A DNA stretch of 49,267 bases from Bacillota bacterium. Lineage in GTDB: Bacteria; Sysuimicrobiota; Sysuimicrobiia; Sysuimicrobiales; Segetimicrobiaceae. A program made the position numbers and the translations under genes. Within the stretch, counting starts at the first letter, position 1. Every line of letters starts with the position of its first letter. The stretch lies in the NCBI GenBank assembly GCA_021324295.1, contig JAJPJJ010000104.1:1-49267 (forward strand), given 5' to 3'. This document shows, in pieces, positions 37,703-42,781 of the stretch. Under the pieces are notes generated by a model that did no database searches, had not been told where the DNA came from, and saw nothing but the letters and a program-made list of their open reading frames with translations.

Positions 37703-38791
37703 ATGGTGAAATCGACACGGCGGCAGGCAACGCGCGGCCTCACCGAGGGCGCGCTCCTCGCCGCGCTTACGGTGATCGTGGGCGCGGTCGGGCTCGTCGC
37801 GCCGTTCGTCGGCATTCTGCTCGCCCCGCTGCCGATCATGCTCCTCGTGATCCGGTGGGGGCTGCGGACAGCCGTGCTCGCCTCGGTGGTTGCTGCCCTG
37901 ATCCTCCTGCAGTTCTTCGGACCGCTGAACGCGGTATCGATCACCGCGATGTTTGCGCCGCTGGGCCTCGCGCTCGGCTGGGGTGTGTGGCGCGGCATCG
38001 GCGCGCAGTTCACGGTGTTCCTGGGCGCTGCCGCGTTCCTGGTGTCGACGATCGCCGCGCTCGCCACGACCACGTTCGTGCTGCACCAGGACCTGGTCGG
38101 CCAGTTCATCACGAGCCAGGTGCAGGCGATGCAGATGGCGCTCAGCCTGCAGCAGAAGCTCGGGGCACCGGCGCAGCACATCGAGGAGATGCGCAGGACG
38201 ATCGCCGCGCTCCCGCAGTTCCTGCACACGGCGCTGCCGGTCATGTTCGCGCTGGGTGCGCTCGTGTGGTCCTATCTCTGCTACGCCCTGGCGCGCGCGG
38301 TCCTCCGGCGGGTGGGGCATCGGTTGCCCGGCGTGCCGCCGATCCTGAGCTGGCGCGTCCCTCCGCCGCTCGCGGCCGCGCTGCTCTGGGCCGCCGCTGT
38401 GCTGGCGCTCGCGGCCCTGCGTGTCCACCAGCTCAGCGGCGCCGCGCTGGACGCGCTGATCGTGAACGTGTTTGTCTTCGGGTTCCAGGGAGCCCTCGTC
38501 GGCATCGCCTGGGCGAATCGTCGGCAGATCCCCCGGATCGCCCAGGTGCTCGCCGGCGTGCTCGTGCTGACCGCCGGCCTGTTGCCGATCCTGGCCCTCA
38601 CGGCTCTGGGGATGCTCGATACCTGGTTTGACTACCGGCGGCTCACCGGAGGCCCGGGCTCGCCCGCCTCCGGCCTCGACGCCTCGGAGACGCAGGACCG
38701 GCCGCACGCGTCGCGCGCCGGCGGGAGGCCGCCGGGGAAGGGCGCGGACACTCTGCGGATCGAGCCCGCGGAGGCGGCGCGCCCGCAGTGA
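37703..38791 (+). CDS. DUF2232 polytopic membrane protein
   Basis: A 362-residue membrane protein with about eight hydrophobic helices between residues 12 and 310, beginning LTEGALLAALTVIVGAVGLV. A polar loop at about 130-165 holds QAMQMALSLQQKLGAPAQHI. The position between rpsR and rplI/dnaB is the usual place of DUF2232 (YybS-like) genes in Bacillota. The function is unknown; a substrate-binding membrane role has been suggested for related folds. The last 50 residues are polar and cytoplasmic. The ATG at 37703 is chosen as the start before the first helix. The stop overlaps the rplI GTG. Confidence 0.85.
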   Translation: MVKSTRRQATRGLTEGALLAALTVIVGAVGLVAPFVGILLAPLPIMLLVIRWGLRTAVLASVVAALILLQFFGPLNAVSITAMFAPLGLALGWGVWRGIGAQFTVFLGAAAFLVSTIAALATTTFVLHQDLVGQFITSQVQAMQMALSLQQKLGAPAQHIEEMRRTIAALPQFLHTALPVMFALGALVWSYLCYALARAVLRRVGHRLPGVPPILSWRVPPPLAAALLWAAAVLALAALRVHQLSGAALDALIVNVFVFGFQGALVGIAWANRRQIPRIAQVLAGVLVLTAGLLPILALTALGMLDTWFDYRRLTGGPGSPASGLDASETQDRPHASRAGGRPPGKGADTLRIEPAEAARPQ

Positions 38792-39234
38792 AGGTCATCC
38801 TGATCAAGGACGTCCCGTCCCTCGGCCGGGCCGGAGAGGTCCGGGAGGTCAAGGACGGGTACGCGCGCAACTATCTGCTGCCCCGCGGCTTCGCCGCACC
38901 GGCGACCGATCGCAATCTCCAGGCACTGGCCCACAGCCGGCAGGCACAGCAGCAGCGTGAAGCGCGTGCCGTGCGGGAAGCCGACGCGGTCAAAAAGCAG
39001 CTCGAGTCGCTCGTCGTGGCCGTGCACGCACGAGCCGGCGAGGGAGGACGGCTCTTCGGCTCGGTGACGGCCCAGGATATCGCCGACGCGATCACGCGGC
39101 AGGGCATCGAGGTCTCGAAGAAGCAGGTCGAGCTGGACGAACCCATCAAGACCGCGGGCTTCTACAAGGTGTCGGTCCGGCTCCACCGTCAGCAGACGGC
39201 GATGGTGGAGGTCAACGTCATCGGGACGCGCTGA
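38788..39234 (+). CDS. rplI: 50S ribosomal protein bL9
   Basis: A 148-residue L9. The N-terminal domain MKVILIKDVPSLGRAGEVRE and DGYARNYLLPRGFA is canonical. The long connecting helix (about 45-75) and C-terminal domain with GRLFGSVTAQDIADAI follow. The start is a GTG overlapping the end of the DUF2232 gene (GTGA). Confidence 0.97.
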   Translation: MKVILIKDVPSLGRAGEVREVKDGYARNYLLPRGFAAPATDRNLQALAHSRQAQQQREARAVREADAVKKQLESLVVAVHARAGEGGRLFGSVTAQDIADAITRQGIEVSKKQVELDEPIKTAGFYKVSVRLHRQQTAMVEVNVIGTR

Positions 39235-39273
39235 GCGCCACCGCCCCGGTCGGAAGGACCTCGGTGCCGGAGC

Positions 39274-39450
39274 TCACTCGCCGAACTCGTGCAATCCCCC
39301 GTGATCGTCGTGCTCCGCGGCCGACGGGTCCGGCGCCGCAGCCGGGGTCCCCCGCGGCGGATCGGGATCGCCCACGCCGCTCAGCACGTGGGTGATGCGC
39401 CTGAGCAGGCCGAGGTGCCTGAGAACCGGTCTGCGGTAGAGCTTCTTCAC
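39274..39450 (-). CDS. Small protein with lasso-RiPP leader signature
   Basis: A 58-residue gene on the strand opposite to its neighbours. The start is a GTG at 39450 with a strong GGGAGGG ribosome site 7 bases upstream. The N-terminus reads YRRPVLRHLGLLRRIT, which fits the lasso-peptide leader spacing Y-x2-P-x-L-x3-G-x5-T exactly; in lasso systems this part is bound by the PqqD-like (RRE) protein. The remainder is Gly/Pro/Ala-rich and ends in a His/Asp/Glu-rich tail (EHDDHGGLHEFGE). The residue after Thr-His is Val, not the Gly usual at the first core position, and no lasso cyclase, protease or RRE gene is in the window. It may be an orphan precursor or a member of the non-lasso proteins that carry this leader. 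Confidence 0.6.
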   Translation of the reverse strand: MKKLYRRPVLRHLGLLRRITHVLSGVGDPDPPRGTPAAAPDPSAAEHDDHGGLHEFGE

Positions 39451-39457
39451 GTCGGTA

Positions 39458-39464
39458 CCCTCCC
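39458..39464 (-). promoter_or_regulatory. Ribosome binding site of the small leader-type gene
   Basis: GGGAGGG on the minus strand stands 7 bases before the GTG at 39450. It supports translation of an otherwise unremarkable 58-codon frame and fixes its start. Confidence 0.6.
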
Positions 39465-39928: not shown

Positions 39929-42781
39929 GTGAGCATCGCGCAGCAGATCGAGCGCGTTCCACCGCAGAACCTGGAGGCAGAACAAGGCGTCCTCGGCTCC
40001 ATGCTGCTCGACCGCGACGCGATCGCCAGGACGGTCGAGGCGCTGCGGCCCGAGGACTTCTACCGCGACGCCCACCGCATCATCTTCTCGGCCATGCTCG
40101 ACCTGTTCGAGCGCGGAGAGCCCGTCGACCTGATTACCGTCACCAACCGCCTCGCCGGGATGGGCAAGCTCGACGACGCCGGCGGGGCCACGTACCTCGC
40201 CTCGCTGCCTAACGTCGTGCCCACGGCCGCGAACGTCGACTACTACGCCGGCATCGTGCTCGAAAAATCGATGCTGCGCGCCCTGATCAACGCCGGCACC
40301 CACATCGCCTCGTTGGGCTACGACGGCGCGGACGATGTCGCGGCGTTGATCGACCAGGCCGAGCGGCTGGTCTTCGGCATCGCCGCGCGCCGCAACGTCC
40401 AGGACTTCCAGCCCATCAAGGAGATTCTCAAGGAGAGCTTCGAGCGAATCGACAAGCGCTACCAGGAAAAGGGCACGGTGACGGGCATCGCGACCGGCTT
40501 CACCGATCTCGACATGCTCACCTCCGGCCTTCAGCCCTCAGACATGATCATCGTGGCGGCGCGCCCGTCGGTCGGGAAGTGCCTCAGCGCCGACTCGGAG
40601 ATCGTGCTGGAGGACGGCACCATCGCCACGATCGAGGAGATCGTCCAGCGCAGGCAGGCCCGGCTCCTGACCCTGGGACGGGACGGGAAGTTCAGGGTGA
40701 CAGAGCCATCTGCGTTCGTGGATGACGGGATCAAGCCCGTGTTCCGGGTGACGACGAGCCTGGGCCGGACGGTCGAGTGCACGGCGATTCACCCGTTCCT
40801 GACGATCGAAGGGTGGCTGCCTCTCGCGTCGCTCCGCGTTGGAGATCGCATCGCTGTCCCCCGCAGAATCGCGGTCTTCGGCAGCGCGCCGCTGCGCGAG
40901 TGTGAGATCAAGCTGCTCGCGTACCTGGTTGGAGACGGCTCGCTCGGCGGCGGCAAGGTTTCACGCACCAACGGCCACGCGCGCATCATCGAGGACTTCG
41001 CGGAAGCAGTCCGGGCATTCGGTGGCGCGCGAGGTCGACGGGAACGCGACCGTAGCGGATGGCGGGCACCGGCGCTCGCGATCACCGGCGACCCCTTCTT
41101 CATCAAGAGGCATCGACAAGCGTTCCCCCGGGCACTCCGGGCTCCTCTGGGGCGGGTGCGCGGGTCCCCAGGCCGATTGGCGCGAGCACGAGGAGCGAGC
41201 CCCGCCAGCGTGACGCGCCGGACGAGCGGAGCCAGCGGCCCGACCGAAGCGGTGTTCCGCCGACTGTGGAGAGTGCTCACCGTGCCGCCCGAGGCGCGGG
41301 CGCCACATGGCCTCGCCACGATCGGCAGAGGCAGCAAGAACCCCGTCGTCCTGTGGCTCATGGGACACGGATTGTGGCGGAAAGACGCCGGTGGCAAAGA
41401 GATCCCCGCAGCCGTCTTCACCCTCCCCCGCCCCCAGCTTGCGCTCTTCTTGAATCGCCTGTTCGCAACCGGCGGGTGGGCGACCGCCAAGCGAGAACGG
41501 CGGGCCGCGCAGGTCGGCTATGCGACGGCAAGCCGGCGGCTAGCCCGCCAGGTCCAGCATCTCCTTCTGCGCTTCGGGATCATCGCCCGGCTCCGGACGC
41601 GCGCAGTCCGCGACAACGGGACCCAGCGGGCCGCGTGGCACGTGGAGATCACCGACCCGGCGTCGCTGGAGACGTTTGCGCGAGACATCGGCATCTTCGC
41701 CCAGGAGGCCCGGCTCGCGCGCGTCCTCGCGGCCGTCGCGGCGAGAGCCCGAAGGCCACACACGGATGGGATCCCGCCCGGGATACGGCCGGCCATCGCG
41801 GCCGCGAAAGGCGCAGCGTCGTGGGCTCGCACGGCGCGGCGGGCGGGATTCGCTGGACCGTCCAGCCCTCACGCGGGAATTCGGATGCTGTCCCGGGATC
41901 GGTTGCGCCCAATTGCGCACGCCGTGCAGAGCGCATCCCTGCGCCGGCTCGCGATGAGCGATGTCTGTTGGGACCGGATCGTCGCCATCGAGCCGGTCGG
42001 GGCAAGGCAGGTCTATGACCTGACTATCGTCGAGACCCACAACTTCGTCGCGAACGATGTGCTCGTCCACAATACCACGTTCGCTCTCAATATCGCCCAG
42101 CACGCGGCGCTCGCGCACAGGGTCCCCGTCGCGATCTTCAGCCTGGAGACGAGCAAGGAACAGCTCGTCCAGCGCATCCTCTGCTCGGAAGCGCAGGTCG
42201 ACAACACCAAGCTGCGCACGGGGTTCCTCGCCGACGAGGACTGGCGGAAGCTCGCGCGCGCGATGGGCGGCCTGAGCGAGGCGCCGATCTTCATCGACGA
42301 CTCGGCCACGCTGTCGGTCATCGAGATGCGCGCCAAGGCGCGCAAGCTCAAGGCCGAGCACGGGCTCGGCCTGATCGTCATCGACTACATCCAGATGATC
42401 CAATCGTACAAGCGGGCGGAGAACCGCACGCAGGAGCTGAGCGAGATCGCGCGCGGCATCAAGTCGCTCGCCAAGGAGCTGGACGTTCCGATCATCGCGA
42501 TCTCGCAGCTCAGCCGGGCCGTCGAGGCGCTGGGCCAGAAGCGCCCGATGCTGAGCCATCTGAGGGAATCGGGCGAAATCGAGCAGGTGAGCGATCTCGT
42601 CATCTTCCTCTACCGCGAAGACTACTACGACCTCGAGAAGGCGCAGCGGGAGAACAAGGAAAACATCTGCGAGGTCATCATCGCCAAACATCGCAACGGC
42701 CCGATCGGGGTCGTCGAGCTGTACTTCCACAAGGAGTACAGCCGATTCGCGAACCTCGAGACACGGCGACGAGGCTCGTGA
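39929..42781 (+). CDS. dnaB: Replicative DNA helicase DnaB, intein-containing precursor
   Basis: A 950-residue precursor. The two extein parts (217 and 235 residues) join to a 452-residue DnaB, a normal length. The N-extein holds the N-terminal domain ([18 protein letters not shown], then [16 protein letters not shown]) and the first half of Walker A, ARPSVGK. The C-extein resumes [12 protein letters not shown] and has [26 protein letters not shown] and [20 protein letters not shown]. The helicase unwinds DNA at the fork as a hexamer. The insertion splits the P-loop, so the protein cannot bind ATP before splicing. The GTG start follows CGGAGG. A perfect SOS box lies upstream. Confidence 0.96.
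40580..42073 (+). other. DnaB intein with degenerate LAGLIDADG endonuclease
   Basis: A 498-residue in-frame intein placed between the Walker A Lys and Thr. It starts with Cys1 ([15 protein letters not shown]), has the block B TxxH (CTAIHPFLT), block F ([19 protein letters not shown]) and the terminal His-Asn, with Thr as +1 residue. All splicing residues are present. The first endonuclease motif is intact ([12 protein letters not shown]). The second reads [12 protein letters not shown], with Gly (codon 41471-41473, GGC) where the catalytic Asp is expected. Cleavage activity is therefore probably lost while splicing is kept. An Arg-rich stretch at about 41135-41265 also looks degenerate. Confidence 0.92.

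Follow-up and report, generated by a model that had tools for sequence, protein, structure and literature searches.

Lasso leaders are processing signals, and lasso cores with a first residue other than Gly exist, as in the caulonodins. Outside the lasso peptides, dispersed RiPP precursors are known from the prochlorosins, where one enzyme set with ProcM serves precursors encoded elsewhere in the genome. Mining for lasso peptides starts at gene clusters containing the B and C genes. The residues by which B1 and B2 recognise a lasso precursor are Tyr-17, Pro-14, Leu-12 and the penultimate Thr of the leader (PMC10368454); the rings are of 7–9 residues as a rule (PMC8498205), and the longest lasso in a 2026 review has 33 aa (PMC13352647). 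Some steps of the pathway are separable or additional. PadeB1 and PadeB2 together cleave the paeninodin precursor without the cyclase (PMC5067487). BsfK, with help from B1, phosphorylates its precursor at Ser3 and tolerates Thr3 there (PMC10368454), and PsmN is connected with the attachment of a hexose to phosphoserine (PMC9266682).

The window (the whole stretch of 49,267 nucleotides that was analysed) carries a 58-codon frame in the interval between rplI and dnaB, with the minus-strand translation M(GTG)KKLYRRPVLRHLGLLRRITHVLSGVGDPDPPRGTPAAAPDPSAAEHDDHGGLHEFGE from 39450 to 39274 (Table 1). The GTG is the start of the gene, and upstream of it there is no further in-frame start. The gene runs towards rplI, which ends at 39234, and away from dnaB, which starts at 39929. 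Residues Y5, P8, L10, G14 and T20 fit Y-x2-P-x-L-x3-G-x5-T exactly, and with T20 set at -2 they become Y-17, P-14, L-12, G-8 and T-2. The G-8 position was taken from the motif of the earlier note and from the TbiA leader, and the other positions from PMC10368454. T20 stands before His21 as the penultimate residue of the predicted leader, and the paralogue described below has the same arrangement. The earlier note had proposed an overlooked minus-strand gene of 58 codons, with an exact fit to the leader motif behind a well-placed GGGAGGG. The gene is borne out by the paralogue and by coding-like G+C, the five residues do match, at a count above chance, and the GGGAGGG was found at 39464-39458, seven bases before the GTG. 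The hairpin in the 39-bp convergent gap is not stronger than those of shuffles (z -1.0 and -0.6). A second site, AAAGGAGG, lies at 39561-39554 and is followed by an 18-codon frame. The two had been taken to hint at a leader transcript; both are present in the sequence, but a function for them gained no support, and no promoter- or terminator-like site was found when one was sought there. An Rfam scan of the window gave no match. On the dnaB side, the intein runs from window position 40580 to about 42080 on the plus strand and sits in the ATP-binding loop; the same intein sequence is present in dnaB of a same-family genome (L047).

Table 1. Features of the peptide gene, its surroundings in the window and the related frame on contig C115.
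Feature	Position	Strand	Sequence	Basis or remark
Precursor peptide gene, 58 codons	39274..39450	-	MKKLYRRPVLRHLGLLRRITHVLSGVGDPDPPRGTPAAAPDPSAAEHDDHGGLHEFGE	ORF, paralogue, synonymous divergence, codon-position G+C
Ribosome-binding site	39458..39464	-	GGGAGGG	7 nt before GTG, read directly
Predicted 21-residue lasso-type leader	39388..39450	-		Exact motif fit; predicted cleavage after His21
Predicted 37-residue core/follower	39277..39387	-	VLSGVGDPDPPRG... then Pro/Ala-rich stretch, His/Asp-rich tail	Translation
rplI (ribosomal protein L9), left neighbour	38788..39234	+		ORF; orthologues in 10 same-family genomes, 63-69% identity
Convergent gap between rplI stop and peptide-gene stop, 39 bp	39235..39273	.		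Hairpin-forming, without T-run
dnaB with intein, right neighbour	39929..42781	+		ORF; in relatives, DnaB N-terminus downstream of rplI
Leader-type ORF, 31 codons	C115 31039-30944	-	MKRASQKPVPRKLGPISRITQTLTPPSISTA	AAGGAGG site; directly upstream of B1

The motif occurs once in the six frames of the window, where 60 Markov-1 simulations gave a mean of 0.017, and the degenerate DNA pattern of GLLRRIT likewise has a single occurrence, with none seen in any of 100 shuffles. The G+C content by codon position (0.76/0.51/0.86) is coding-like and resembles that of the real genes here. A degenerate DNA pattern for the leader, run on about 122 Mb of sequence from 43 genomes of the order, gave 16 matches, and its reversed control gave 2. 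The 16 comprise two leader peptides, which are the window gene and a paralogue in the same genome, 11 occurrences of one conserved protein, and 3 singletons. The 11 (in L065-L070, L072-L074, L077 and L078) are a family protein with YxxPxLIxLGTLPIFT and are not leader peptides, and the match in G038 lies inside a longer ORF that by eye resembles carboxymuconolactone decarboxylase. The YxxPxLIxLGTLPIFT protein fits the lasso leader pattern by coincidence and as such is a trap for pattern-based leader mining.

The paralogue is encoded on contig C100 of the same genome. It has 58 aa, VRATYTKPVLMKHGLLRRITQVLSSTEGADPPRGHHSGQDDPGPGHHGHGHAYGLGKE, and is 47% identical to the window peptide (E 2.8e-8). 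The two are alike in total length, in the 21-residue leader and in a 37-residue core that starts V-L-S and has Asp9; DPPRG in the core is common to both, and both C-termini are rich in His (EHDDHGGLH in the window, GHHGHGHAYG on C100). Both copies keep open frames, ribosome sites and all the leader residues, and a strong hairpin lies 3' of the C100 gene. Within the first 34 codons there are 20 identical residues, 11 of which are encoded by different codons (for example, Ser by AGC versus TCG). Since the flanks, moreover, are without DNA similarity, the divergence is old and took place under constraint at the protein level. The paralogue is the strongest evidence against chance, and on the strength of such sequence comparison we conclude that the 58-residue frame is a real gene. 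Recent duplication or spread by a mobile element was rejected because the flanks of all three leader genes, counting a shorter one on contig C115, lack DNA similarity. The orphan of the earlier note is therefore not alone, given the C100 paralogue and the shorter C115 frame.

Among family models, NF033528 (lasso_cyano) is the best match for both full-length peptides, but the scores fall below its cut-off of 33 bits. The window peptide reaches 13.6 bits, and the paralogue reaches 25.5 bits (E 9.5e-6) over the leader and the first core residues. A lasso leader HMM search had been suggested as a check on the window peptide, and the match was weak, since none of the lasso precursor models gave a score that reached its curated cut-off. 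In the PDB, the sole match of the leader profile is weak (E 0.37), and it is to the TbiA leader bound in 5v1u. The core of the window peptide has Val1, Ser3, Asp7 and Asp9. An acidic ring acceptor at core positions 7–9 is thus available as Asp7 or Asp9, the latter in common with the C100 paralogue; a Val at the first position, where mostly Gly is usual, and a predicted length of 37 aa do not conform to a lasso core. The description of the core as nonstandard stands as to the unusual Val1, but the core is less odd than it seemed, with Ser3 and Asp9 recurring in the paralogue.

The lasso protease is present in only one of the 12 genomes of the family, the source genome itself, and no leader peptides were found by profile or by pattern in the other genomes of the family. 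Between rplI and dnaB, the leader motif is absent in 8 same-family genomes having both genes, and in 2 partial stretches. The same-family genomes compared belong to other genera, with rplI 63-69% identical. Because these relatives are of other genera and also lack the protease, the absence of the frame speaks for lineage-specific gain or loss and not for a spurious ORF; conservation in this interval had been proposed as a check, and the frame is indeed missing from relatives, but for the same reasons this does not refute the gene. Profile matches at E 0.01-1 in the family genomes were not leader peptides in the best cases, which were inspected, nor were the G328 matches to a two-row profile. 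Searches of genome_contigs, viral_contigs and plasmids, of limited sensitivity for a 58-residue query, returned no homologue from outside the genome. In L046-L053, rplI and dnaB are separated by anything from about 0.2 to 1.3 kb, so that the interval seems prone to insertions.

A standard lasso peptide with local enzymes was dismissed, as no such enzymes were recognised in the window, and no B and C genes clustering with the precursor were recognised among its listed ORFs. The observation that maturation genes are not near thus holds within the window, but not genome-wide, where B1 and B2 are found on contig C115. The genome has exactly two PqqD/RRE (B1-type) proteins, both on C115, and exactly one lasso protease (PF13471, Transglut_core3; 63.6 bits), also on C115. 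In its true frame, the protease scores 62.5 bits against NCBIfam lasso_biosyn_B2 (NF033537, cut-off 33). The best PDB match of the B1 protein is TbiB1 of 5v1u, at 46.5 bits. The genes on the minus strand run in the order leader-type ORF, PqqD, B2, HprK-like kinase and NTP_transf_5, followed further down by the other PqqD, another HprK-like protein and a pair of family-2 glycosyltransferases; the plus strand has a further NTP_transf_5 and a GlcNAc-epimerase-like gene. PsmN is, we presume, a member of the NTP_transf_5 family. Read by eye in the translations, the two HprK-like proteins show H...G-x2-G-x-GK[ST]...DD, as does BsfK. The first scores 58.7 bits against HprK_rel_A, below the 200-bit cut-off, and the second has no Pfam match. 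Catalytic-looking motifs are kept in B2 and in the kinases. A search of genome_contigs with B2, using a query with a few incorrect N-terminal letters, gave no match. The locus is interior to a 112-kb contig, and over about 21.5-31.1 kb, its tailoring set is doubled around one protease (two each of PqqD, HprK-like, NTP_transf_5 and family-2 glycosyltransferase, besides the GlcNAc-epimerase-like gene), without a cyclase.

The leader-type ORF on C115 differs from the two full-length precursors. At -17 and -12, where those have Tyr and Leu, it has Ser and Pro, and its core starts T-L-T and is without Asp or Glu. Past its TAG, the frame resembles the Pro/Ala-rich DPPRG-TPAAAPDPS of the window peptide, so this ORF may be a shortened precursor. 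When a three-row leader profile was run on the genome, the only confident matches were the three leader ORFs, all of them its own members. Divergent from the leader ORF, at C115 31204-32394 on the plus strand, is a gene without a Pfam or NCBIfam match, parts of which resemble an ATP-grasp ligase by eye; a ligase of that kind would be an alternative ring-closing enzyme.

A lasso cyclase (the asparagine-synthase-like C protein) was sought with PF00733 throughout the assembly (96% complete, in 129 contigs) and was not found; on C115 the model had no match at all. Two full matches, on C57 and C82, were rejected, as they lie in polysaccharide-gene neighbourhoods, have the CGI glutaminase start and keep the catalytic Cys; of two partial matches, one looks like an NAD synthase and the other like a PP-loop protein. 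The genome-wide check for a PqqD-like RRE, a lasso protease and a cyclase that the earlier note had suggested thus produced two PqqD proteins and one protease, but no lasso cyclase. The other three proteases of the order scoring over the cut-off (in G014, G026 and G038) adjoin asparagine-synthase- or glutaminase-type ORFs. There is a possible but small chance that a cyclase was missed through assembly loss.

Enzymes on another contig, a second stray copy and the want of a recognisable ring-closing enzyme point to an unusual modified-peptide pathway that is probably fed from a distance. We think it fairly probable that the window gene supplies an orphan precursor to a lasso-type RiPP system (B1, B2 and kinase) acting in trans, and the corresponding proposal of the earlier note, an orphan leader-bearing peptide gene in a replication locus modified in trans by way of an RRE protein, is supported to that degree. 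Acting in trans, the B1 of C115 would bind the window and C100 leaders, the HprK-like kinase would phosphorylate a hydroxyl residue of the core before cleavage, for which Ser3 (present in both orphan peptides) would be the best candidate, and B2 would cut after residue 21. Up to leader removal, then, the window peptide is predicted to act like a lasso precursor. As the search for a cyclase found none, the system is likely to yield a linear peptide of 37 residues that is phosphorylated, possibly carries sugar and has a His/Asp-rich tail; it is probably not a standard lasso. Metal binding as its role is a guess from the His content. With leader, B1, B2 and acidic core residue in place, and cyclase, clustering, length and first residue out of keeping, we do not file it as a lasso peptide. 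Several points weigh against this reading. The enzymes sit on another contig, so that the reading presumes linkage, co-expression and recognition. With Ser-17 and Pro-12 in the C115 leader ORF, a tag other than that of the window peptide may be the one preferred by the B1 of that locus. No lasso precursor model scores the window peptide as high as its curated cut-off, an assembly of this completeness could lack a cyclase that the organism has, and homologues beyond the genome were not found in searches of limited sensitivity.

If the frame were an antisense ORF that arose by chance and fits the motif by accident, it would join the long spurious ORFs that abound in genomes of high G+C, and its absence from the rplI–dnaB interval of relatives would follow. 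This is hardly credible. The diverged paralogue with conservation at the protein level already contradicts it, the motif count is far above chance in the simulations, the shuffles and the order-wide pattern, and the frame co-occurs with the lasso protease in 1 of 12 family genomes. In a true lasso precursor, cleavage would be followed by ring closure between the amine of Val1 and Asp9 (or Asp7), with the long tail threaded, the cyclase being lost from the assembly or shared from another locus. Asp9 in both orphan copies, the rule of 7-9-residue rings (PMC8498205), the unfinished state of the genome and the asparagine-synthase-like neighbours of the order's other lasso proteases all lend this some weight. 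We nevertheless consider it unlikely, since no cyclase was found in the C115 locus, which is interior to its contig, and since both full asparagine synthases belong to polysaccharide loci and retain the catalytic Cys. Asp and Glu are, moreover, absent from the core of the C115 leader ORF, the longest listed lasso has 33 aa (PMC13352647) against the 37 residues of this core, and Val1 is unusual.

The leader might instead serve as the docking tag of a small protein that is not a RiPP, whose Pro/Ala-rich, His/Asp-rich part stays uncut, perhaps binds metal, and is brought as a partner to the RRE protein or to its enzymes. The His-rich C-termini of both copies, a core unlike standard lasso cores and the missing cyclase are consistent with this. 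It is quite unlikely, given that the cleavage Thr is present at -2, that the genome has a lasso leader protease, and that lasso leaders are known as processing signals. Decay offers another account, in which a lasso-type system came by transfer and lost its cyclase, leaving scattered precursors to degenerate. The confinement of the system to one genome of the family and the failure to find a cyclase fit a relic, as does the C115 precursor ORF, a short frame from which Tyr-17 and Leu-12 have been lost and which is followed past its stop by a frame resembling part of the window peptide. A relic is very unlikely, given the open frames, ribosome sites, complete leader residues and many synonymous differences of the window and C100 copies and the catalytic-looking motifs of B2 and the kinases.

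Returning to the in-trans precursor reading, we tentatively raise the possibility of a cyclase-less offshoot of the lasso systems, in which scattered precursors with lasso leaders would be bound by an RRE, phosphorylated, decorated with glycans and cut by the protease to give linear His/Asp-rich peptides, so that leader, B1 and B2 would form a general peptide-processing module. If B1 and B2 act in trans, lasso leaders are a portable tag, and B1/B2 can be used without ring closure. Because mining starts from B/C clusters, the orphan precursor, the second copy and the cyclase-less enzyme locus would all be missed.

Of the known systems, the split B1/B2 lasso system of TbiA and TbiB1 (PDB 5v1u) is like this one in leader residues and spacing, in a B1 of the PqqD type and in having a lasso B2 in the genome, and 5v1u is the closest solved relative of both the window leader and the C115 B1. 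Compared with TbiA/TbiB1-type precursors, the window gene differs in being unlinked to its enzymes, in the cyclase not having been found, in Val1 and in the 37-aa core. Paeninodin (Pade), pseudomycoidin (Psm) and the Bradymonas bsf system likewise have an HprK-like kinase, NTP_transf_5 (PsmN-like) and split B1/B2, and BsfA has Ser at core position 3, as does the window peptide. Those clusters contain a cyclase and a linked precursor, whereas here the precursors are scattered, no cyclase was found, and the tailoring genes are duplicated (two PqqD, two HprK-like and two NTP_transf_5). The likeness to the prochlorosins and ProcM lies in one enzyme set with precursors elsewhere in the genome, an arrangement that is predicted here; the prochlorosins are lanthipeptides with Nif11-type leaders and many precursors, whereas this genome has two full precursors with lasso leaders.
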